Shown here: positions 1 to 28,610 of the stretch, in pieces
Numbering within the stretch: position 1 is the stretch's first letter
Layout of the letters: every line of letters starts with the position of its first letter
Assembly: GCA_019456305.1 (NCBI GenBank)
Contig: VRUD01000041.1
Location: 1 to 36,370, forward strand
From: Cytophagales bacterium
GTDB lineage: Bacteria > Bacteroidota > Bacteroidia > Cytophagales > VRUD01
Direction of reading: 5' to 3'
DNA length: 36,370 nucleotides
The notes under the pieces: generated by a model
Told to the model about the DNA's origin: nothing
Databases searched by the model: none
Seen by the model: only the letters and a program-made list of their open reading frames with translations
Made by a program: the position numbers and the translations under genes

Positions 1-2
1 GC

Positions 3-3000
3 AGTGTAACACTAACAGCCAGTCCTGCTGTCAGCTATTTATGGTCAACCAGTGCGATAACTCAAAGCATTATTGTAAGTACACCGGGATCCTACACTGT
101 AACTGTAACAGATGTCAACGGTTGCAGCTCGACATCTGCACCAACCTCAGTAACCGTAAATCCAAACCCGGCTGCACCAATCATCTCTCCAGGCGGTCCT
201 ACTACTTTTTGCCAGGGAGGCAGTGTAACACTTACATCCAGCGCTGCAAATAGTTATTTATGGTCAACCAGTGCAACAACACAAAGCATCATTGTTAGTA
301 CAGGTGGCTCATATACTGTTACAATATCAGATATCAACGGTTGCAGTGCCACATCTGCACCAACTTCAGTAACCGTAAATCCAAACCCTACCCCGATCGT
401 AACTGCCAGCGGGCCGATAACCTTTTGTGATGGCAATAGCGTAATTTTAACATCCAGCGCTGCTGCCAGTTATTCATGGTCAACAGGCGCTGCTACTCAA
501 AGCATCACCGTCAGTGTCAGTGGATCTTACTCCGTAACGGTAACCGATGGAAACGGCTGCAGCGGAACCTCTGCACCAACTTCAGTAACCGTGAATCCAA
601 ACCCGGCTGCACCAATCATATCTGCAGGGGGGCCTGCTACTTTTTGCCAGGGCGATAGCGTAACATTGACATCCAGCGCTGCGTTTAGTTATTTATGGTC
701 AACCAGTGCAACAACCCAGAGCATTAATGTTACTGCCAGCGGGTCTTACACGGTCACAATAACAGATATTAATGGTTGCAGCGCTGCATCTGCACCAACC
801 TCTGTAACCGTCAATCCAAATCCGGCCGTTCCTGTTATCACGACAAGCGGGCCAACATCTTTCTGTGTTGGTGACAGCATAACATTAACATCAAGCCCTG
901 AAAACAGCTATTTATGGTCAACCGGGGCTGCTGCTCAGAGCATCACTGTTAGCACCAACGGCTCCTATTCTGTAACTGTAACAGATATAAATAGTTGCAG
1001 TTCAACATCTGCACCAACATCCGTAACCGTTAATCCATTGCCCACCGCAGTTTTATCTTCTTCAACAAACGTAAGCTGTAATGGAGGCTCTGATGGAACA
1101 GCTACGGTAAATGCGTCAGGAGGAACGAGTCCATATTCATATAATTGGTCTTCCGGTGGCATTGATACAACCGAAACAGGTTTGTCAGCCGGTATTACTT
1201 ATAGTGTTATTGTCACTGATACTAATGGCTGCACAGATAGTGATTCGGTAACGCTTACTGAACCAGCAGCGCTACTACTCACTACCGGCAGCGTTGATGC
1301 TACTTGCGGAGCTGCTGATGGACAAGCTTCAGTGTTTGTAACCGGTGGTACAGGGCCTTATACCTATTTGTGGAATGATACCAGTGCACAGACCACCGAT
1401 ACTGCTACAGGATTACCAGCCGGGAGCTATACTGTTACTGTTACCGATACAAGTAGTTGCACATCTAATGCGGTTATCTCAGTGAATGATGCCGGCGCTC
1501 CTACGGCTATTATCACTTCAACCACTAATGCTACTTGTGGTGATACTTGCGATGGCGATGCAACAGTCTCTGTAACAGGCGGAGCACCTCCTTATACCTA
1601 TGTTTGGAGTGATTCGCTTGCTCAAACTGACTCTATAGCAACTGGTTTGTGTGCCGGTAATTTCTCTGTTACAATTACAGATACTGCAGGATGTGTTGCC
1701 ACTTCAAATATTACCATTACAGCGCCTCCCTTATTAACTGCTATTATTGCTTCAAAGGTTGATATTTCCTGCAATGGAGCAGGAGATGGCTCTGCTGCGG
1801 TTGGTGTAACCGGAGGAATTGGATCTTACACATATCTGTGGGATGATCCCTCAGCACAAACCACCATTGCAGCCAGCAATTTAATCTCAGGGATCTACAC
1901 TGTTATTGTGACCGATTCTATCAACTGCACAGTAACTACCGGTGATACCATCAATGAACCGGCCCTGATCAGCTTAACAGACACTTCAACCGATGCCACC
2001 TGCGGCAATGCAGATGGTTCGGCAACTGTAACAGCTACGGGCGGTACAGGTGGCTATACCTGGTTATGGTCTACCGGCGGCACAGCAGCAACTGACAGCA
2101 ACCTCGCATCTGGGATCTACAACGTTACCGTAACAGATGCCAATGGATGTACTGCTTCATCAACAGTAGCAGTTAATGATATTGGAGCGCCCACAGTAAG
2201 CATTTCATCCGGCAATGATGTGACCTGTAACGGAGCTTGTGACGGTGATGCCACCATAAGCGCTGCAGGAGGTTCACCACCTTACGCCTACTTATGGGAT
2301 GATGGACAAATTGATTCAATAGCGATAGGATTATGTGCCGGCACATACAACGTTATTGTTACGGATACCAACGGATGCAGTTCTGTGGCAAGTATTACTA
2401 TTGGAGAACCAACTGCTATCAGTTTAATTACCTCTTCAACTGATGCCTCCTGCGGGTTTGCAGATGGTTCGGCTACGGTAACAGCTACTGGCGGTACAGG
2501 TGGATATAGCTATCTATGGTCAAGTGGTAGTACAGCAGCGACTGATAGCAACCTGACATCAGGGGTCTATACCGTTACCGTTACAGACACAAATGGGTGT
2601 ACTGCTTCAGCAACAGTGGCAGTTAATGATATTGGTGCACCTGCTGTAAACATCTCATCCAGCACTAATTTACTTTGTAACGGAGATTGTAACGGAGATG
2701 CTACCGTAAGTGCAACGGGAGGAACTCCACCTTATACCTGGTTGTGGGATGATGGCCAGGCAGATTCGACAGCAACAGGACTGTGTGCAGGTACATATAA
2801 TGTTACTGTTACCGATGCAAGTGGATGCAATTCAATTGTAAATGTTACCATCAATCAACCGCCTGCTATCAGCTTAACAACCCTTTCAACCGATGCCACC
2901 TGCGGCAATGCAGATGGTTCGGCAACTGTAACAGCTACAGGCGGTACAGGTGGCTATACCTGGTTATGGTCTACCGGCGGCACAGCAGCAACTGACAGCA

Positions 3001-4277
3001 ACCTCGCATCTGGGATCTACAACGTTATCGTAACAGATGCCAATGGATGCACTACTTCATCAACAGTGGTAGTTAATAATATAGGAGCGCCCACAGTAAG
3101 CATCTCATCCAGCGCTGATGCAACCTGTAACGGGTCTTGTGACGGTGATGCCACCGTAAGTGTAACAGGTGGAACGCCACCTTATACTTATTTATGGAAT
3201 GATGGCCAAATTGATTCAACTGCAATAGCGTTGTGTGCAGGCACATATAACGTTACTGTTACCGATTCCAACGTATGTAATTCAATCGTAAATGTTACCA
3301 TCACTGAACCCACAGCTATCAGCTTAACAACCGCTTCAACCGATGCCACTTGCGGCAACGCTGATGGTTCGGCAACGGTAACAGCCACAGGAGGTACAGG
3401 TGGCTATACCTATTTATGGTCTAGTGGAGGCACTGGAGCAACTGAAAGCAACTTGACATCAGGAATATACACCATTACAGTGACAGACGTTAATAGCTGT
3501 ACTACAACAACATCGGTTACGGTTAATGAACCAGCAGCACCTACTGCAAGCATCTCAACCAGCAATGATGTGCTTTGTAATGGAGACTGTAATGGCAATG
3601 CCACTGTAAGTGCAACAGGAGGCGCTGCGCCTTATATCTATTTATGGGATGATGGTCAGACCGATTCAACCGCAACTGGACTGTGTGCAGGCACAAACAA
3701 TGTTACTGTTACTGATACAAATGGATGCAGCGCTGCCGGTGTAAACGTTACTATTAATGAACCGGCAGCTCTTCTGTTATCAACCGATTCAACAGATGCC
3801 ACTTCAGGGAATTGCGATGGTTCTGCAACTGTAACCGCCACAGGGGGTACGGGGGGATATTCATACCTATGGGATGCCTCAACAGGCAACCAAACCACAC
3901 AAACAGCTACGGGTTTATGTGCCGGTACTTATAATGTGACAGTTACGGATGGGAATGGTTGTACTGCAACCGATACGATTACAGTAGTTGAGCCAACAGG
4001 AATAGTGGATATTGATTTTGTCAATAGTATCAACATATATCCAAACCCCAATCTTGGTGAATTTAGCATAGAAATGGAGATAAGTCAGGTGGAAGATATA
4101 CAGGTAAAAATAATAAGCCTGACTGGTAGGAAAAAAGAAGTATATTATGAGAAATTAAGTCAATTTACAGGAACTTACAGAAAACAGATCAATCTGGATA
4201 AATTCGCAAAAGGAGTATATCAATTACAGGTCATTACCACCTACGGTACAGTTAACAGAAAAGTGATACTAGAATAA
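3..4277 (+). CDS. Giant T9SS-secreted adhesin with Ig-like and SprB repeats (5' truncated by window edge)
   Basis: The reading frame is open from the first bases of the window, so the ATG at 591 is internal; about 1424 residues are visible and the true start lies upstream. Residues 1 to about 345 are five Ig-like repeats of 72-73 aa, each with a YLWST core, a SYTVTVTD strand and an SAPTSVTVNP linker. Then come 13 SprB-type repeats of about 75 aa with the pattern ATCG/CNG..DG, GG..PYTYLW, GL.AGTYNVTVTD.NGC. The last 85 or so residues are a T9SS type A sorting domain (INIYPNPNLGEFSIE start, GVYQLQV, RKVILE end). Known of the family: SprB-like proteins are exported by T9SS and act as surface adhesins in gliding or attachment. 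Adhesin function here is inferred. The SprB repeats alternate between two subtypes with a 450-nt period, so repeat number may vary by recombination. Confidence 0.93.
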   Translation, partial: SVTLTASPAVSYLWSTSAITQSIIVSTPGSYTVTVTDVNGCSSTSAPTSVTVNPNPAAPIISPGGPTTFCQGGSVTLTSSAANSYLWSTSATTQSIIVSTGGSYTVTISDINGCSATSAPTSVTVNPNPTPIVTASGPITFCDGNSVILTSSAAASYSWSTGAATQSITVSVSGSYSVTVTDGNGCSGTSAPTSVTVNPNPAAPIISAGGPATFCQGDSVTLTSSAAFSYLWSTSATTQSINVTASGSYTVTITDINGCSAASAPTSVTVNPNPAVPVITTSGPTSFCVGDSITLTSSPENSYLWSTGAAAQSITVSTNGSYSVTVTDINSCSSTSAPTSVTVNPLPTAVLSSSTNVSCNGGSDGTATVNASGGTSPYSYNWSSGGIDTTETGLSAGITYSVIVTDTNGCTDSDSVTLTEPAALLLTTGSVDATCGAADGQASVFVTGGTGPYTYLWNDTSAQTTDTATGLPAGSYTVTVTDTSSCTSNAVISVNDAGAPTAIITSTTNATCGDTCDGDATVSVTGGAPPYTYVWSDSLAQTDSIATGLCAGNFSVTITDTAGCVATSNITITAPPLLTAIIASKVDISCNGAGDGSAAVGVTGGIGSYTYLWDDPSAQTTIAASNLISGIYTVIVTDSINCTVTTGDTINEPALISLTDTSTDATCGNADGSATVTATGGTGGYTWLWSTGGTAATDSNLASGIYNVTVTDANGCTASSTVAVNDIGAPTVSISSGNDVTCNGACDGDATISAAGGSPPYAYLWDDGQIDSIAIGLCAGTYNVIVTDTNGCSSVASITIGEPTAISLITSSTDASCGFADGSATVTATGGTGGYSYLWSSGSTAATDSNLTSGVYTVTVTDTNGCTASATVAVNDIGAPAVNISSSTNLLCNGDCNGDATVSATGGTPPYTWLWDDGQADSTATGLCAGTYNVTVTDASGCNSIVNVTINQPPAISLTTLSTDATCGNADGSATVTATGGTGGYTWLWSTGGTAATDSNLASGIYNVIVTDANGCTTSSTVVVNNIGAPTVSISSSADATCNGSCDGDATVSVTGGTPPYTYLWNDGQIDSTAIALCAGTYNVTVTDSNVCNSIVNVTITEPTAISLTTASTDATCGNADGSATVTATGGTGGYTYLWSSGGTGATESNLTSGIYTITVTDVNSCTTTTSVTVNEPAAPTASISTSNDVLCNGDCNGNATVSATGGAAPYIYLWDDGQTDSTATGLCAGTNNVTVTDTNGCSAAGVNVTINEPAALLLSTDSTDATSGNCDGSATVTATGGTGGYSYLWDASTGNQTTQTATGLCAGTYNVTVTDGNGCTATDTITVVEPTGIVDIDFVNSINIYPNPNLGEFSIEMEISQVEDIQVKIISLTGRKKEVYYEKLSQFTGTYRKQINLDKFAKGVYQLQVITTYGTVNRKVILE
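1985..3093 (+). repeat. Near-identical direct repeats 900 bp apart inside the SprB array
   Basis: Bases 1985-2193 and 2885-3093 match at an exact 900-bp offset with about eight differences by eye, including an unbroken identical run of 88 bases (2040-2127). The copy half-way between them (around 2435-2650) is clearly more diverged, so the pair is more alike than the regular 450-nt SprB period predicts. This suggests recent duplication or gene conversion of a four-repeat block. Confidence 0.85.
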
Positions 4278-22288: not shown

Positions 22289-22639
22289 ATGAACAATATA
22301 GAAAACACTGTTTACACATTAGATTATGCACCTGAAAAAATAGTTACAGGTGCTAATGTATATTATCTCCGCTATCCTTTAAGATGTTTATTTGAAAAAG
22401 AAGACAATTATTTCATAATAAAATCTGAACTTATAGACATCATCGGAACTGGTGAAACAGAAGATGAAGCTGAACAAAACTTTGCCGAAGAATTTGACTT
22501 TATTTATCATAGATATAATGAGCTGCCTGATAATAAACTATCAGAAAGGATAAAAGTCATCAAAACATTTCTTAACTATATTGTAGAAAACGATTATTTA
22601 AAAATACTCAAAGGAAAAAATATTTTAGAAAGAAAATGA
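22289..22639 (+). CDS. HicB-like small protein, orphan
   Basis: 116 aa, acidic. The centre (YFIIKSELIDIIGTGETEDEAEQNFAEEF) follows the HicB-type pattern of a beta-strand pair and then a G.T..EA..N helix, as in partial RNase-H-fold antitoxins. No HicA-like toxin is adjacent: the next gene runs in the opposite direction and its stop abuts this one at 22640. The C-terminal 40 residues are helical and lysine-rich, without a recognised DNA-binding motif. It could be an antitoxin that has lost its partner, or a standalone regulator. The family assignment is by pattern only. Confidence 0.5.
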   Translation: MNNIENTVYTLDYAPEKIVTGANVYYLRYPLRCLFEKEDNYFIIKSELIDIIGTGETEDEAEQNFAEEFDFIYHRYNELPDNKLSERIKVIKTFLNYIVENDYLKILKGKNILERK

Positions 22640-25600
22640 CTAATCCAGCACCGCCAACTCAATAAAAAACGAAGTCCCTTTACCGGTTTTAGTCTCAAAC
22701 CAGATCTTGCCGCCTGCCAGTTCCATTCCCCTCTTTGCTACTGCCAAACCAATGCCTGAACCTTTGGATTTTGTGCTGAAAGAAGGAATAAATATTTTGT
22801 CTTTTATTTCATCCGGAATGCCAATGCCGTTATCTTTTATTTCAACAACAACATGCTGATTGGTGGTAAACAAGCGAACAACTATTTCAGATTTGCGGGT
22901 GTTGGGAACAGATTCAATTGCATTTAGCAAAAGATTTGTAAATATCCTGCTCATTACCTGTTCATCTGCCATTACGTAGACTGGATATTGGATGTTTGAT
23001 GTTTGATGTTTGATATTGGATGTTGGTGTGGAATTGTTAAATAAGTCAATAGTTCTTTTTAATACTTTGTCAATTGCTATTTTCTCATTTTTAGGTACCG
23101 GCATATTGGCAAACAATGAAAAAGAATTGGTAATATCATTTAACGTTTCAATTTGAGTTATTAGGGTTTTAACTGTTTTCTCAGTTACTTCCTTTACATC
23201 AGATCTTTTCTCCCGGATGGCATATTGCAAATGCTGGAGTGTCAGCTTCATGGGGGTCAAGGGGTTTTTAATTTCGTGTGCTACTTGTTTTGCCATTTCA
23301 CGCCAGGCGCTTTGTTTTTCGCTCTGCGCCAGCGCTTTTTTGCTTTCTTCTAATTTTACCAGCATTTGATTATATTCGCTTACCAAAAATCCGATCTCAT
23401 CATCTGATGTCCATTCCAGCGGTTCATTCTCAGCGAGTGTTGTTCTTTTTATCTTTTGTGTGATCAATGTTAACGGGTATATCAATTTCTGTGACGCAAA
23501 GTATGAAAACAATAAAAATAAGATAAAAACGCTTGTAAAGATATTCATGATCATTGTTAGTACCTCAATAAGCTGGTTATCAAGTTCGGATTTAGAATCA
23601 AAAAACGGGATACTGATAATACCCAGCATATCGCCTGTATTAAACGATTTTATCCCTGCATAAACTGCGTTATATTTTAGATTTCCAACCGATTCAGATA
23701 GCAGAATTTGTTTGTTGTTTTGTTCAATAATTGCAGTAAGCGCTTCAGGATTAATGAGCTTTGACAGCAAGCCTTCTTCAAATATTAACGGTTGGCTGGA
23801 AATGATAAGTCTGCCATCTGTACCAAATAGATTGATATCTGATTCTGAATATTTGGCAACCAGTAAGAGTTGGTTTGTCAGCGATCCCTTATCAAGCTTA
23901 CCCTTTTTATACTTTTCAAGTGAAGCTGTAATGTTGATACTTGCTCTTTCTGCATTTTTCAGGTATCGCTTTCGAATATCCTTTTTGTATGAAGAATTTA
24001 TTAAGCTCAGTGTGGTAATACTGACAATGATCAGGGGCAGGAAGAATGCGACATTTAAAAATATCTGAATTTTAGTACTGTAATTTGTCCTTGTATCTTT
24101 CTTCCTATACCGCTCAATACCAGCATATATAATGACAAATAATAGAATAAAAAAAGCCAATAATAAAAATAAGAATGAAAAGTTTGAAAAGATATTTTGA
24201 AAGGAGTATGTGGATGAAGTGATGATAATATGTTTATCTATTTGCTGAAGGGGACGGACCCCTGCAGAATCGGGATCAACATGTCCGCCTGCCCCGTCAG
24301 AAAGAACGACTGTACCGGGGTCCCCCGGGTTTTTTACATGAAAATGACCAAATTGCATTGAGCGGGTATGCTCGTCACCTACCAGCAAATGATGAAAACC
24401 TTTGAGTTTAATACCCTGACCGTATATGTCATTAAAGTTGAATAATGATTCAATAATATCTTTCTCATAATTATAATCTCCGAAACTGTAAATCAAATTA
24501 TTTCCTGCAAAAACAGCGAAACTGTATTGTTTACTGAAATGTAATTGTACGAATCGTTTATCGAGCAGCAATTCCGGGATAACGCTGTTAGGGATGATCT
24601 TTTTTAATTTCAGATCAATAACTATCTTACCAATAAGACAAGTTTCTACATTTGGTTTGGGAGCTACCCCATGGAGTTTATCACGACTAAGTCGGGAGGA
24701 CTCCGGACTCCTTCGGTGATGAACGAAGGATTCGGGACAGGCTTTTTCAATTTCAATAAATTTTATATAGCGGTTTTGTAATGAACCGGTAAGATGGTAG
24801 CCTGTGTGCTTGGGTTGTTTCCCATGTTCTGATATATCTTTGATAAAATACAGATCAGGGTATTGAGTGCTGTATTCTTTTTTCTTATAGCGATCAAGCA
24901 GTTTTTGGTAATAACAAGTTGAATCCTCTTGTATTTCATAGTCCGAGATAAATTCAGGGTGAGAACCTGCCTCTCTGCTTAGCTCCAAAAGATATTTATT
25001 ATCTAAAGGGGCTTGTTTTGATGCAGGCACTGATTCTGCTGCTGGCAAAATTGGTGAGGATGAAAATAAATCACCCTGTGCATTTAGGATATATATTTTA
25101 GTATCATACTTATCAAAATAATTATTCAAATAGACACGTTTTATTTTTTGCTCAATTATATCTTTAGAAGAAAAAGGGCTAAGAAGCCTGTTTTGGATAA
25201 AAATGTCTTTTTTTATCTGCTTTGCTGCTTCTTCCAGCAGATATTCACCCAAAACGTCATTCTCATATAATAGCTGCGTAACAAACCTTCGCTTATCAAT
25301 TACATTTTTTTTCTCATTGAAATTATACAATGAATAGGAACCGGTAATAGCACAAACAATTGCTGATAGAAACAAGTACAGGTAAGTTGAATAATTTATT
25401 CTGGTTAAGGATCGGGGAATATTGAAGCCAACTAATAGAGCAAAATAACCACTATTTAAAACGATCACCAACCAGTCAAAGCCCTCTATAAATTGTGATA
25501 AAAACAGTCCATATAAAACAGTTGTCAGTATAAAAATAAAGGCAGCAAAAAACTGATGATTGCGGTAGATGTGAATAAAAAAGGTGGTAAGCATGTGATT

Positions 25601-25816
25601 TAACAAGAAATATAGCCCGGAGATCAAGACAAAAATGAGAAGACAAATAATTTTGTATGATGCAAAATTAATATCTGAAGTGATGTCAATTGTCCATTGA
25701 GAATGAAAATATATTGATCTTAAAATCAGAAATACTCCTAAGAGGGTTGTATGACTTAGAATTATTATGACTATTGCAAAAATCCCTTTTATGATATATT
25801 TATCTAAGTAACGCAT
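22640..25816 (-). CDS. NtrY-like sensor histidine kinase, C-terminal part of a split gene
   Basis: 1058 aa. It has several N-terminal membrane helices (to about residue 175), a large sensor region, two more helices near 555-605, a second sensor region and a last helix near 750. HAMP follows (LIYPLTLITQKIKRTT, DDEIGFLVSEYNQM), then HisKA REMAKQVAHEIKNPLTPMKL with phospho-acceptor His847, then HATPase with FTNLLLNAIESV, DNGIGIP and GSGIGLAVAKR. The HisKA sequence is of NtrY type. Three in-frame repeat insertions lie at about residues 357-387, 495-523 and 931-945; the kinase motifs survive them. It begins 53 bp after a 288-aa ORF that appears to be its own missing N-terminus (see 25870-26736). 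No response regulator is adjacent. Autophosphorylation is likely retained, but signal sensing may be damaged. Confidence 0.88.
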   Translation of the reverse strand: MRYLDKYIIKGIFAIVIIILSHTTLLGVFLILRSIYFHSQWTIDITSDINFASYKIICLLIFVLISGLYFLLNHMLTTFFIHIYRNHQFFAAFIFILTTVLYGLFLSQFIEGFDWLVIVLNSGYFALLVGFNIPRSLTRINYSTYLYLFLSAIVCAITGSYSLYNFNEKKNVIDKRRFVTQLLYENDVLGEYLLEEAAKQIKKDIFIQNRLLSPFSSKDIIEQKIKRVYLNNYFDKYDTKIYILNAQGDLFSSSPILPAAESVPASKQAPLDNKYLLELSREAGSHPEFISDYEIQEDSTCYYQKLLDRYKKKEYSTQYPDLYFIKDISEHGKQPKHTGYHLTGSLQNRYIKFIEIEKACPESFVHHRRSPESSRLSRDKLHGVAPKPNVETCLIGKIVIDLKLKKIIPNSVIPELLLDKRFVQLHFSKQYSFAVFAGNNLIYSFGDYNYEKDIIESLFNFNDIYGQGIKLKGFHHLLVGDEHTRSMQFGHFHVKNPGDPGTVVLSDGAGGHVDPDSAGVRPLQQIDKHIIITSSTYSFQNIFSNFSFLFLLLAFFILLFVIIYAGIERYRKKDTRTNYSTKIQIFLNVAFFLPLIIVSITTLSLINSSYKKDIRKRYLKNAERASINITASLEKYKKGKLDKGSLTNQLLLVAKYSESDINLFGTDGRLIISSQPLIFEEGLLSKLINPEALTAIIEQNNKQILLSESVGNLKYNAVYAGIKSFNTGDMLGIISIPFFDSKSELDNQLIEVLTMIMNIFTSVFILFLLFSYFASQKLIYPLTLITQKIKRTTLAENEPLEWTSDDEIGFLVSEYNQMLVKLEESKKALAQSEKQSAWREMAKQVAHEIKNPLTPMKLTLQHLQYAIREKRSDVKEVTEKTVKTLITQIETLNDITNSFSLFANMPVPKNEKIAIDKVLKRTIDLFNNSTPTSNIKHQTSNIQYPVYVMADEQVMSRIFTNLLLNAIESVPNTRKSEIVVRLFTTNQHVVVEIKDNGIGIPDEIKDKIFIPSFSTKSKGSGIGLAVAKRGMELAGGKIWFETKTGKGTSFFIELAVLD
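22984..23025. repeat. Six in-phase heptamers inside the kinase gene
   Basis: Six 7-nt words run without a break: gatattg, gatgttt, gatgttt, gatgttt, gatattg, gatgttg. The total is 42 nt, so the frame is kept and 14 codons are added, read on the minus strand as a SNIKHQ-like peptide, between the HisKA and HATPase domains. The strict 7-nt period cannot come from codon structure. Confidence 0.9.
24248..24335. repeat. GC-rich insertion 1 in kinase sensor region
   Basis: GGACCCC (24256-24262) faces GGGGTCC (24317-24323). The stretch is far richer in GC than its surroundings and codes for a Gly/Asp/Pro-rich peptide (GDPGTVVLSDGAGG) with no membrane or sensor-domain character. Boundaries are approximate. 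Confidence 0.6.
24660..24748. repeat. GC-rich insertion 2 in kinase sensor region
   Basis: Two small hairpins are seen: CGAC/GTCG (24684-24694, loop taa) and CCTTCG/CGAAGG (24710-24729). It is read as a basic, low-complexity peptide (SPESSRLSRDKLHGVAP) within an otherwise Lys/Ile/Asn-rich sensor domain. Boundaries are approximate. Confidence 0.6.
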
Positions 25817-25826
25817 TTGTTAAAAA

Positions 25827-25875
25827 AGTTGACAATTTACAGTCCCGACAAAGTCGGGATTGTAAACTGTCAACT
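25827..25875. repeat. 49-bp hairpin that interrupts the kinase gene
   Basis: Arms of 23 bp (25827-25849 and 25853-25875) with two mismatches, both G-U-compatible, and a 3-base loop. The stop codon of the N-terminal kinase ORF (25870-25872) lies in its arm, and the next kinase ORF starts 11 bp beyond it. Its words (cagttgacagt) resemble the arrays at 16279 and 32673. Confidence 0.88.
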
Positions 25876-26736
25876 GTATGATAATAATAATTTTAGCAAT
25901 ATTGATCTTCTATAATTTTTAAAAAGAAACAGCAACAAAATATAAACACACAAAATATTTATTAATAAGTCACCAAACGAGGGGGACAGCATAGAAGAAG
26001 CATAGTATTTCGGGTTAAAAAGGCTGATCTCATAAAACGAAAAAGGGAGGGTGTAATAAAGCAGCAAAACTCTTAAAGCAGCTATGATCAATAATAAAAC
26101 AAAAAAACCTGCTTCTACATTCCATTTGCCGGCTATCTTTTGTGCAACTAAATATGTGTAGATCAAGAAGGATAGTAAAGCTATAGATCCAAGCAACAAT
26201 AAAATAACACCGAAAAGCTGATCGCCTGGATCATTCGGAAACAACTTTTTATTTATACCTGAACTGATATATTTATTTTCAATATCATATTTATACGAAA
26301 GGGGTATCAAAATATAAGCATTATAAATATCTTGTTCATTCCCTTTATTTGCTTCTTTAGCAAAGGTAGATTGCACAGCGAAGTACTTGCCATTACGCAG
26401 TTCAACATCTTTTTGTGAATAATCTCCTGTTAGTACATCATAATCTGGAATTACTTTATTATCTGACCAGAAAAATAATTGTTTGTTCTTATAGATCAGG
26501 ATTGTATTATCATCTGGATGCGGGAGATTGGAAAATTGATCTTTATCGTGAGCAAGTATGATTTCCTTTATCAATGACAGGTCATCTTTACAACGTGCTG
26601 CCTCATCAACAATCTTTGCCTTTATTCCCGGTCGTTCGGACACGCCAATGGCATCTCCTATCGAAATTTTAAGGATTACTAATAATGATAAAGTGAGAAG
26701 AGCAACGACAAGGAAAAAATTACTTTTGATGAGCAT
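25870..26736 (-). CDS. N-terminal membrane/sensor part of the split histidine kinase
   Basis: 288 aa. It has an N-terminal helix (NFFLVVALLTLSLLVILKISI), an extracytoplasmic region of about 150 residues (residues 25-175), then three helices (around 178-200, 212-232 and 255-275) around a YASSMLSPSFGDLLINI loop. It has no kinase motifs. The natural-looking sequence stops at RRSILLKLLLSY, where a 49-bp hairpin supplies Ser and the stop. The following ORF starts directly with more membrane helices and lacks a plausible sensor N-terminus. From memory, homologous Bacteroidota kinases carry the SLGDLLLN-type loop and the NtrY core on one chain of 1200 aa or more. I infer one ancestral gene cut by the hairpin; two separate genes making a complex is the alternative. 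The start codon is at the edge of a GCGCATAG repeat (26737-26790). Confidence 0.75.
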   Translation of the reverse strand: MLIKSNFFLVVALLTLSLLVILKISIGDAIGVSERPGIKAKIVDEAARCKDDLSLIKEIILAHDKDQFSNLPHPDDNTILIYKNKQLFFWSDNKVIPDYDVLTGDYSQKDVELRNGKYFAVQSTFAKEANKGNEQDIYNAYILIPLSYKYDIENKYISSGINKKLFPNDPGDQLFGVILLLLGSIALLSFLIYTYLVAQKIAGKWNVEAGFFVLLLIIAALRVLLLYYTLPFSFYEISLFNPKYYASSMLSPSFGDLLINILCVYILLLFLFKNYRRSILLKLLLSYS

Positions 26737-26790
26737 GGCGCATAGAGCAAAGCGCAGAGCGTTAGCCGCTATGCGTTATGCGCTTTGTTT
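26737..26790. repeat. GCGCATAG/CTATGCGC inverted repeat between two genes
   Basis: The words gcgcatag and caaagcgc on the left (26738-26757) face ctatgcg and gcgctttg on the right (26769-26787). It joins the CAMC gene, whose last six residues RITHSG it encodes, to the start codon of the kinase N-terminal ORF. The same word occurs at 6753-6766, 28484-28491 and 35108-35115, always at a gene end. Confidence 0.65.
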
Positions 26791-27022
26791 TTTTGTAATT
26801 TCTATACCATACAAAGGCAATAACACTCAATAGAATATAGGGGAAAGCCATGAGGTATAAAATACCAGAGTTTAAACCTGCCCCAATGCTGCTTGCACCG
26901 CTGTTTAAATTGTTCTCAACCGTGGCACGGCACATGGCGCATTGGGCAAATATATCTTGACCTGCTATCAATAATAAAGCCGCAACTAAAATTGTGATAA
27001 AAAGTATTTTTTTCATTTCCAT
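26762..27022 (-). CDS. Small CAMC-motif membrane protein
   Basis: 86 aa (84 from the second ATG at 27016). It has a signal peptide or anchor (KKILFITILVAALLLIAGQDIFA), then QCAMCRATVENNL and a C-terminal helix (ILYLMAFPYILLSVIAFVWYR). The CxxC pair just after the membrane segment, a glycine-rich link and the PYIL helix match a small conserved Bacteroidota protein commonly found near cytochrome oxidase assembly genes (from memory). That fits the DUF420 neighbour 49 bp upstream. Metal or haem handling is only an inference. The C-terminal RITHSG comes from an adjacent repeat. It has its own candidate promoter at 27036-27065. Confidence 0.75.
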   Translation of the reverse strand: MEMKKILFITILVAALLLIAGQDIFAQCAMCRATVENNLNSGASSIGAGLNSGILYLMAFPYILLSVIAFVWYRNYKKTKRITHSG

Positions 27023-27035
27023 AATGTTTTTTCTA

Positions 27036-27065
27036 CAAAGATAATAAATATTTCCTTAATATCAA
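27036..27065 (-). promoter_or_regulatory. Promoter of the CAMC protein gene
   Basis: On the minus strand, TTG (27065-27063) is followed after 19 nt by TATCTTTG (27043-27036), ending 13 nt before the first ATG. It lies just beyond the DUF420 stop, so the CAMC-kinase genes may be transcribed apart from DUF420. Confidence 0.55.
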
Positions 27066-27071
27066 CAATAA

Positions 27072-27599
27072 TCAATAATACGGACTTATCATTAAATAAA
27101 CCACAACCCCTGAAACCGCCACATACAACCAAATCGGAAAAGTCCATTTTACAATTTTTCGATGCCTTTGAAATTGCTGAGATATGGCAAAATAAATAGC
27201 CAGCAAAACAAACGGTACCACCACAGCAGCCAGACTAATATGACTGATCAATAAAATATAATATAACGGCCTGATGGCCCCCTCACCCAAATACGGAGTT
27301 GGTTCGGCCTGATAATGATAAACAACATACGAAACAAGAAAGGCACTAGACAATGCAAAGGCCGACAGCATGGAGATCATGTGATATTTTTGATGATGGT
27401 TTTTAATAAAAGTGAAACCCGTTATCAATAAAATTGCGGTTAAAGAATTAAATACAGCATTGATATGGGGCAAAACAGAAACGTCCACTTTTCCTAATTT
27501 ACCGGTTTGCGGTATGAAAAGGAGAAAAGCAATTGCAATTGGGATCAGGATTGAAACTGTAATTATAAGAGTAAAATATAGTTTTTCTTTTTTCTTCAT
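27072..27599 (-). CDS. DUF420 (YozB/CtaM-like) membrane protein
   Basis: 175 aa with five membrane helices and almost no soluble part. DUF420 features are the first-helix/loop block PHINAVFNSLTAILLITGF, the HHQKYHMISML loop, VSYVVYHYQAE and the HISLAAVVVPFVLLAIYFA helix with its conserved His residues, followed by HRKIVKWTFPIWLYVAVSGVVVYLM. Known of the family: S. aureus CtaM, a DUF420 member, is needed for maturation of aa3-type cytochrome oxidase. The role here is inferred, and no oxidase subunit lies in the window. The start ATG at 27599 is at the edge of a nested palindrome spacer (27634-27753). Confidence 0.88.
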   Translation of the reverse strand: MKKKEKLYFTLIITVSILIPIAIAFLLFIPQTGKLGKVDVSVLPHINAVFNSLTAILLITGFTFIKNHHQKYHMISMLSAFALSSAFLVSYVVYHYQAEPTPYLGEGAIRPLYYILLISHISLAAVVVPFVLLAIYFAISQQFQRHRKIVKWTFPIWLYVAVSGVVVYLMISPYY

Positions 27600-27633
27600 A
27601 ATAAATTACTGCCGGGTTGTTTAGCACTAAAAA

Positions 27634-27753
27634 AATGCTAATATACGAATGAATACTAATCCCGAGTACTCGGGACTAATAATGAAATCTATATTAAGAA
27701 GCAGAGTAAAAATATTCGTATAATTAGTCCCGCATATTTGCGGGATTAGCATT
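27634..27753. repeat. Nested palindromes between divergent genes
   Basis: The outer arms are 27634-27642 with 27745-27753 (9 bp) and 27643-27650 with 27714-27721 (8 bp). Inside are a 14-bp perfect palindrome (27661-27674, cccgagtactcggg) and a CCCGCA/TGCGGG hairpin (27729-27744). The string at 27704-27720 is identical to 7784-7800. The whole region between the DUF420 and TIGR02117 starts could fold into several stems. Confidence 0.85.
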
Positions 27754-27785
27754 ATAAATTAGTATCGGATCATATTTTTAATACA

Positions 27786-28481
27786 GTGAATAATATATAC
27801 AAATATAAACGAATATCAATAACAATTCTCAAAGCTATATTAATTTTTCTGCTTTTTATTATTACAGCAGCTGGAATTTATCTGATAATGTCACAAATCT
27901 TAATGCGCATACCTGTGAATAGAGCTTATGAATCACCCGATGAAGGTATTGAAATTTTTGTTATATCTAATGGCGTGCATGCCGAATTTGCCGTTCCTGT
28001 TGAATCTACCGTGATCAACTGGAAGGCAATTTTTCCCAACAAAGATTATCAAACACTATATTCTTATATCCTATTCGGTTTAGGAGATAAAGGATTCTAT
28101 ATGAACGTCCCAACCTGGGATGATCTGACTTTTGGAGTTGCTATCAAGGCAATATTAATACCTACCTCCACGGTGATGCACGTGGATTATTTCATAAGAA
28201 AGCCACTTGTTGGGAACTATTCCAGGCGCTTACTTCTAACTGATGATCAATATCAAACACTTGTTACTTATATTCGTAATTCCTTTACGCTGGATGAAAA
28301 GGGCAATTATATTGTCACCCCTAATAGCGGATACTATAAAACCGATAATTTCTATGAAGCAAAAGGGAGTTACCACTCATTTAACACTTGTAACAACTGG
28401 ACAAATACCGGCCTGAAGAAAATGGGGATAAAAACCGCTGCCTGGGCGCCTTTCCAGGGGGGGGTGCTTTATCATTTGTAA
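27786..28481 (+). CDS. TIGR02117/DUF2459 family protein
   Basis: 231 aa from a GTG; no ATG lies near the right place. It has one N-terminal membrane helix (ITILKAILIFLLFIITAAGIYLIM). The rest is extracytoplasmic, with the family signatures ISNGVHAEFAVPV (conserved SNG.H), FGLGDKGFYMNVPTWDDL and, near the end, SFNTCNNWTNTGLKKMGI (conserved NTCNxW). The His and Cys in these motifs suggest a peptidase-like fold of the NlpC/P60 type, which is my inference. No biochemical function is established that I know of. The stop is followed directly by a GCGCATAG repeat word. It is divergent from DUF420. Confidence 0.88.
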   Translation: MNNIYKYKRISITILKAILIFLLFIITAAGIYLIMSQILMRIPVNRAYESPDEGIEIFVISNGVHAEFAVPVESTVINWKAIFPNKDYQTLYSYILFGLGDKGFYMNVPTWDDLTFGVAIKAILIPTSTVMHVDYFIRKPLVGNYSRRLLLTDDQYQTLVTYIRNSFTLDEKGNYIVTPNSGYYKTDNFYEAKGSYHSFNTCNNWTNTGLKKMGIKTAAWAPFQGGVLYHL

Positions 28482-28610
28482 GCGCATAGAGAAACTGTCC
28501 AATAAGGTTTTTGTATTTTATAATTTTATTACCAGTTTTCTTCATAAATTGTTCGTCTGTGTAAAAAACGAGTGAACTAAACTGTATTGCCTCGAACATA
28601 CAACCCTATC

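Follow-up and report, generated by a model that had tools for sequence, protein, structure and literature searches.

A membrane sensor histidine kinase gene probably interrupted out of frame by a hairpin repeat in a Cytophagales bacterium

The window is the whole stretch of DNA analysed here, 36,370 nucleotides of a Cytophagales bacterium (contig VRUD01000041.1 of assembly GCA_019456305.1), in which two open reading frames (ORFs) follow each other on the minus strand with a hairpin at their junction. ORF1 (25870-26736, 288 aa) corresponds to the N-terminal part of the presumed ancestral kinase: hydropathy gives four hydrophobic segments, an alpha/beta sensor domain is predicted between TM1 and TM2, and a Pfam search of ORF1 found no match, in line with the original prediction that the first half has sensor and membrane parts and no kinase. 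The predicted model of ORF1, made from an alignment of whole homologues, has a mean pLDDT of 84.7; a fold search with it returned nothing at E below 0.001, with PhoQ and BvgS PAS chains among the weak top matches, and a PDB sequence profile of ORF1 gave one match with an E of 0.21, which is not meaningful. ORF2 (22640-25816, 1058 aa) corresponds to the C-terminal part; it opens with further membrane segments by hydropathy, as had been noticed, and then carries the Pfam domains HisKA and HATPase_c, with residues 838-1053 aligning to solved kinases.

The hairpin is 49 nt long and lies at 25827-25875 on the minus strand, its arms and loop reading AGTTGACAGTTTACAATCCCGAC-TTT-GTCGGGACTGTAAATTGTCAACT from 25875 to 25827. 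Its folding energy is -32.2 kcal/mol, compared with -8.9 +/- 2.4 in shuffled sequences (z -9.8; reached by 0 of 200 shuffles). Each arm consists of two heptamer words (AGTTGAC and AGTTTAC), which flank a 17-nt palindromic core, TCCCGACTTTGTCGGGA, at 25843-25859, and a T run follows the hairpin on the minus strand. Two features of a terminator, a GC-containing stem and a sense-strand T run, are present, and a scan for the terminator consensus, in which no more than 20 stem pairs count, reports no terminator at this place. An Rfam search of 22600-28500 gave no match. A search for a target-site duplication at the hairpin found AT-rich matches of 4-7 nt only, none of them convincing. Other repeats are found elsewhere in the window: a second word hairpin, made of GCGCATA words, lies at 26738-26790, directly upstream of the start of ORF1; the intergenic segment 27658-27750 contains the palindromes CCCGAGTACTCGGG and CCCGCATATTTGCGGG, and no other repeated palindrome of the sample is as common as CCCGAGTACTCGGG; and a large ORF at 2-3729 contains tandem repeats with units near 219 and 450 bp.

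The TGA stop codon of ORF1 (25872-25870) falls within the hairpin arm, exactly as predicted. The ATG of ORF2 begins 10 nt beyond the hairpin (11 bp had been proposed) and 56 nt from the first base of this TGA, so that ORF2 is indeed in a frame other than that of ORF1. In addition, a TAA in the frame of ORF2 (25820-25822, minus strand) stands one codon ahead of its ATG. Since the TGA of ORF1 comes before the TAA that closes the frame of ORF2 upstream, the two halves can be joined by no single frameshift, whether programmed or erroneous; a single frameshift or a single base error as the cause is ruled out, because stops in both frames bracket about 48 nt. Clean excision of the hairpin as a repair of the frame is ruled out as well, since 49 nt is 1 mod 3: when the hairpin was removed in silico, as had been suggested, a single frame was not restored and ORF1 ran into a stop. 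Deletions of 56, 59, 71 or 74 nt would restore the frame.

Comparison with relatives bears on the origin of the two ORFs. Among 58 relatives of the same order, the genome of the window itself being excluded, ORF1 has a match in 39, and in all 39 the match lies in a single stop-free frame of 1220-1320 codons; none of the 39 encodes the halves as two separate genes. No second copy of the gene was found in the genome of the window. A further sample consisted of 80 loci of named genomes (Spirosoma, Runella, Hymenobacter, Algoriphagus and others), 77 of them with a complete 3' end, and in 76 of these 77 one ORF holds both the N-terminal part and the H-box of the kinase. The 5' end of one locus (L116) is missing from its contig, and the two shortest homologue ORFs, L138 (702 codons, without the H-box) and L127 (1016 codons), are by appearance plain frameshifts; L138 is the kinase homologue of Spirosoma telluris, broken after its 702 codons. 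The identity of the homologues over ORF1 is only 23-34%. In a MAFFT alignment, ORF1 followed by ORF2 is collinear with the single-chain homologues, from the N-terminal membrane part with its LFNPKYYASS and PSLGDLL motifs to the C-terminal part with HisKA and HATPase_c. Unlike the single-chain sensor histidine kinases of Cytophagales, however, the gene of the window is not one uninterrupted ORF. Judged by these alignments, ORF1 and ORF2 descend from a single gene, and the proposal of one ancestral gene, later interrupted, is thereby upheld, including its expectation that a homologue would span both halves in a single chain.

The distance across the break is tightly kept. The stretch running from P in PSLGD to S in HSQ has 68-71 residues in 50 of 51 measured homologues and 64 in the other; in the window the same distance is 281 nt, which is 74 or 71 nt more than the usual 69 or 70 residues require. 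Given this tight spacing, the window carries a net insertion of about 71-74 nt (2 mod 3), of which 22-25 nt fall outside the hairpin. On the N-terminal side of the break lies TM4 of ORF1 (KNYRRSILLK), on the C-terminal side the first membrane segment of ORF2 (MRYLDKYIIK). In membrane proteins, positively charged residues tend to face the inside of the cell; from hydropathy and this positive-inside rule, both ends at the break are predicted to lie in the cytosol, in the loop between TM4 and TM5. As for conserved columns, ORF1 retains 13 of 15 (0.87; homologues 0.67-1.00, most at least 0.93) and ORF2 retains 121 of 127 (0.95; homologues 0.87-0.99), which places ORF1 toward the low side of the homologue range and leaves ORF2 unremarkable.

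As a control for gene splitting, 168 pairs of co-oriented ORFs separated by short gaps were considered, and a comparably strong hairpin occurs in 6, the kinase pair included. In four of the other five pairs the hairpin is flanked by separate genes (rpoA and rplQ, cdsZ and pabB, fabK and kbl, and an OmpA-family pair); in the fifth, purN alone was classified, as the stretch ends inside its neighbour. The kinase pair is thus the only one of the six hairpin-separated pairs shown to be a single gene cut in two. The hairpin between rpoA and rplQ (L083:3792-3860) is a long one, with CGTCTC as its core.

The core of the hairpin belongs to a repeat family of this genome. At up to two mismatches there are 52 copies in the genome and 0 for the reversed control, so that a repeated palindrome exists in many copies within one genome, and many of these copies carry matched changes on both arms (for example TCCCGCCTTTGGCGGGA and CCCCGACTTTGTCGGGG). 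At up to one mismatch the genome has 14 copies, compared with 10 summed over the 58 relatives (in 7 genomes). The closest whole hairpins elsewhere in the genome, on contigs C8 (at 47084) and C31 (at 29901), share the arm words and both end in GTCAACTTTTTT. Since the hairpin is built of heptamer words and a repeated palindromic core, the earlier name "word-array element" is a fair one. At L091:10924-10984 and L092 (about 8784), nearly identical flanks surround the same hairpin, one arm of which differs by 14 nt, that is, by two words.

Core copies also occur inside genes. For 46 copies taken from 40 stretches and the window, a simple caller places 33 inside an ORF (some of these ORFs may be spurious), and all three frames are used (for example SRLCRD, VPTKSG and SPDFVG); as the same caller assigns 86% of the sampled bases to ORFs, the cores show no enrichment in coding DNA, though neither are they excluded from it. 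One near-copy of the core, TCCCGACTTAGTCGTGA, lies in frame in ORF2 itself (24681-24697, minus strand), within a stretch of about 32 aa that is lacking from most of 19 homologues; a genome-wide search with the extra stretch aa 360-391 of ORF2 gave short matches only, and no repeats of the other extra in-frame stretches (aa 256-298, 328-341 and 484-526) were found within the sampled stretches. In an RdgB-like pyrophosphatase (L220:3108-3731, plus strand) a core near-copy codes for PRQNRD at a place where solved homologues are shorter by about 8 residues, and in Lnt the core copy lies outside the aligned blocks. Among the copies compared, extra residues relative to homologues were seen for RdgB and the window kinase only.

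Heptamer arrays are the second kind of repeat. In 643 kb of stretches, 222 of 471 rows reported by TRF have a period divisible by 7; they merge into 155 arrays, 40 of them inside ORFs, so heptamer arrays are depleted in ORFs, though not absent from them. The rate of heptamer rows is 34.5 per 100 kb, compared with 4.1 in 80 loci of relatives, a contrast inflated by sampling, because half of the stretches were picked for hairpin hits and the relatives' loci are gene-centred. One coding example concerns aroB (L205:2312-3652, minus strand, contig G000:C4), which contains an in-frame array of about 222 bp (SRQSAVGSQQPAVGSQQ...) between GHTIGHALES and LRHGEA, two blocks conserved in solved 3-dehydroquinate synthases; this is the only aroB match in the genome. 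ORF2 also has an in-frame heptamer array, PTSNIKHQTSNIQYP (22982-23026, minus strand), with a net gain of about 2 aa relative to homologues. This small gain led to rejection of the array as a clean insertion, and by appearance it is a replacement. Apparent signal peptides at two ORF starts, in L095 (about 7674, minus strand) and L081 (about 6341, plus strand), contain heptamer words as well (TCAACTGTCAACT).

Several known repeat systems resemble parts of this picture. Rickettsia palindromic elements (RPE; PMC2635572) are short palindromes lying in frame in many protein genes of one genome, and the repeats here, likewise many in one genome, may resemble them in this. However, they belong to another phylum, the likeness is one of description, the core here has 17 nt and word-built arms, and the copy in the hairpin is out of frame and cuts its gene. 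Heptamer repeats of the TAACTGA type have been reported in Beggiatoaceae, cyanobacteria and five Bacteroidetes, and the same paper remarks that a gene would be terminated if they entered its coding sequence in one of the two orientations (PMC4679880). These direct repeats, together with the cyanobacterial STRR, share with the present genome the large numbers of tandem 7-bp words, whereas here many words occur instead of one; besides standing in tandem, they make up hairpin arms on either side of a palindromic core and are found within enzyme genes. REP/REPIN sequences with their RAYT (Y1) transposases are likewise small dispersed palindromic repeats, and the genome here has seven Y1_Tnp matches; in contrast, the hairpin does not contain the GTAG tag that marks one REP class. 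Stand-alone Y1 transposase ORFs with short palindromes in their flanks occur in L233 and L235. Coding palindromes are also described in mitochondrial genes of Nematomorpha (PMC6649704), where hairpins lie within coding sequence as they do here, but in those genes, which remain whole, the arms code for conserved residues. A literature search found no report of the combination of palindromes and heptamer arrays in genes in Cytophagales; this speaks only weakly for its absence.

Taken together, it is highly probable that a single gene for a membrane sensor histidine kinase of about 1250 residues was interrupted out of frame by the hairpin repeat of this genome. A short hairpin repeat, made of heptamer words round a palindromic core, would have interrupted the kinase gene with a net insertion of about 71-74 nt, placing a stop in the frame of ORF1 and leaving another in the frame of ORF2 just ahead of its ATG, so that two ORFs would result, and the gene would have been cut in the predicted cytosolic loop between TM4 and TM5. 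As repeats of the same stock lie in frame within other genes, the kinase case would be their out-of-frame outcome. Against this reading count the failure to find a convincing target-site duplication, the 22-25 nt of net insertion beyond the hairpin and the low identity of the homologues over ORF1. We infer, rather than observe, that the hairpin itself is the inserted piece and did not grow in place, and the same holds for its ends and its way of moving.

Other origins of the junction fare poorly. Hairpins are error-prone in sequencing and assembly, and the genome is a draft of 159 contigs, but an artefact at the hairpin is quite improbable: the flanks are the correct halves in the correct order, the stops in both frames make a single base error insufficient, and the homologue spacing demands about 71-74 extra nucleotides. 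Still less credible are two truly separate genes with a terminator-like spacer between them, as in other operons, for the gene is a single chain in every matching relative and the halves are collinear with that chain, even though other strong hairpins of this genome do stand between genuine pairs such as rpoA and rplQ. Equally hard to credit is that the ribosome might bypass the hairpin and make a full-length kinase, by analogy with phage T4 gene 60 and the mitochondria of Magnusiomyces. Bypassing between matched codons has been described (PMC5009743). At the break, a stop codon and a hairpin lie within a short gap, and a TAC before the gap (25878-25876) and a TAC in the ORF2 frame after its start (25810-25808) could serve for take-off and landing; against this, one matched codon pair within reach is probable by chance, the take-off codon is not adjacent to the stop, and such cases are very rare in bacteria.

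As for the fate of the two pieces, it is about an even call, and the reading toward which we lean, that both are produced and associate within the membrane to give a candidate two-part kinase; it is favoured over a young pseudogene, with bypassing ranked least likely. A very recent inactivation by the insertion, with decay yet to come, keeps an appreciable but minor share of the probability. It would fit an out-of-frame break in an otherwise always whole gene, the hairpin and T run on the coding strand could stop transcription, and ORF1 is unmatched in 19 of the 58 relatives, which makes the gene dispensable within the order. Yet about 4 kb run without a further stop or frameshift, the retention of conserved columns in both ORFs is inside the range of whole homologues, and the break lies in a loop where a split membrane protein could be tolerated. 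The candidate two-part kinase may, somewhat more tentatively than the pairing itself, be stable and working, that is, a candidate gene fission brought about by the hairpin repeat at a loop allowed by the topology. The genome of this proposed fission tolerates short palindromes and heptamer arrays in other proteins as well, its sole aroB included.

Short palindromic repeats are usually regarded as extragenic. In this one genome, short palindromes and heptamer arrays are found also in coding genes, with one out-of-frame case that appears to cut a large kinase. If the two-part reading is true, a palindromic repeat would have caused gene fission and not plain loss, and the case may serve as a natural test both of the tolerance of proteins to repeat invasion and of fission versus loss.
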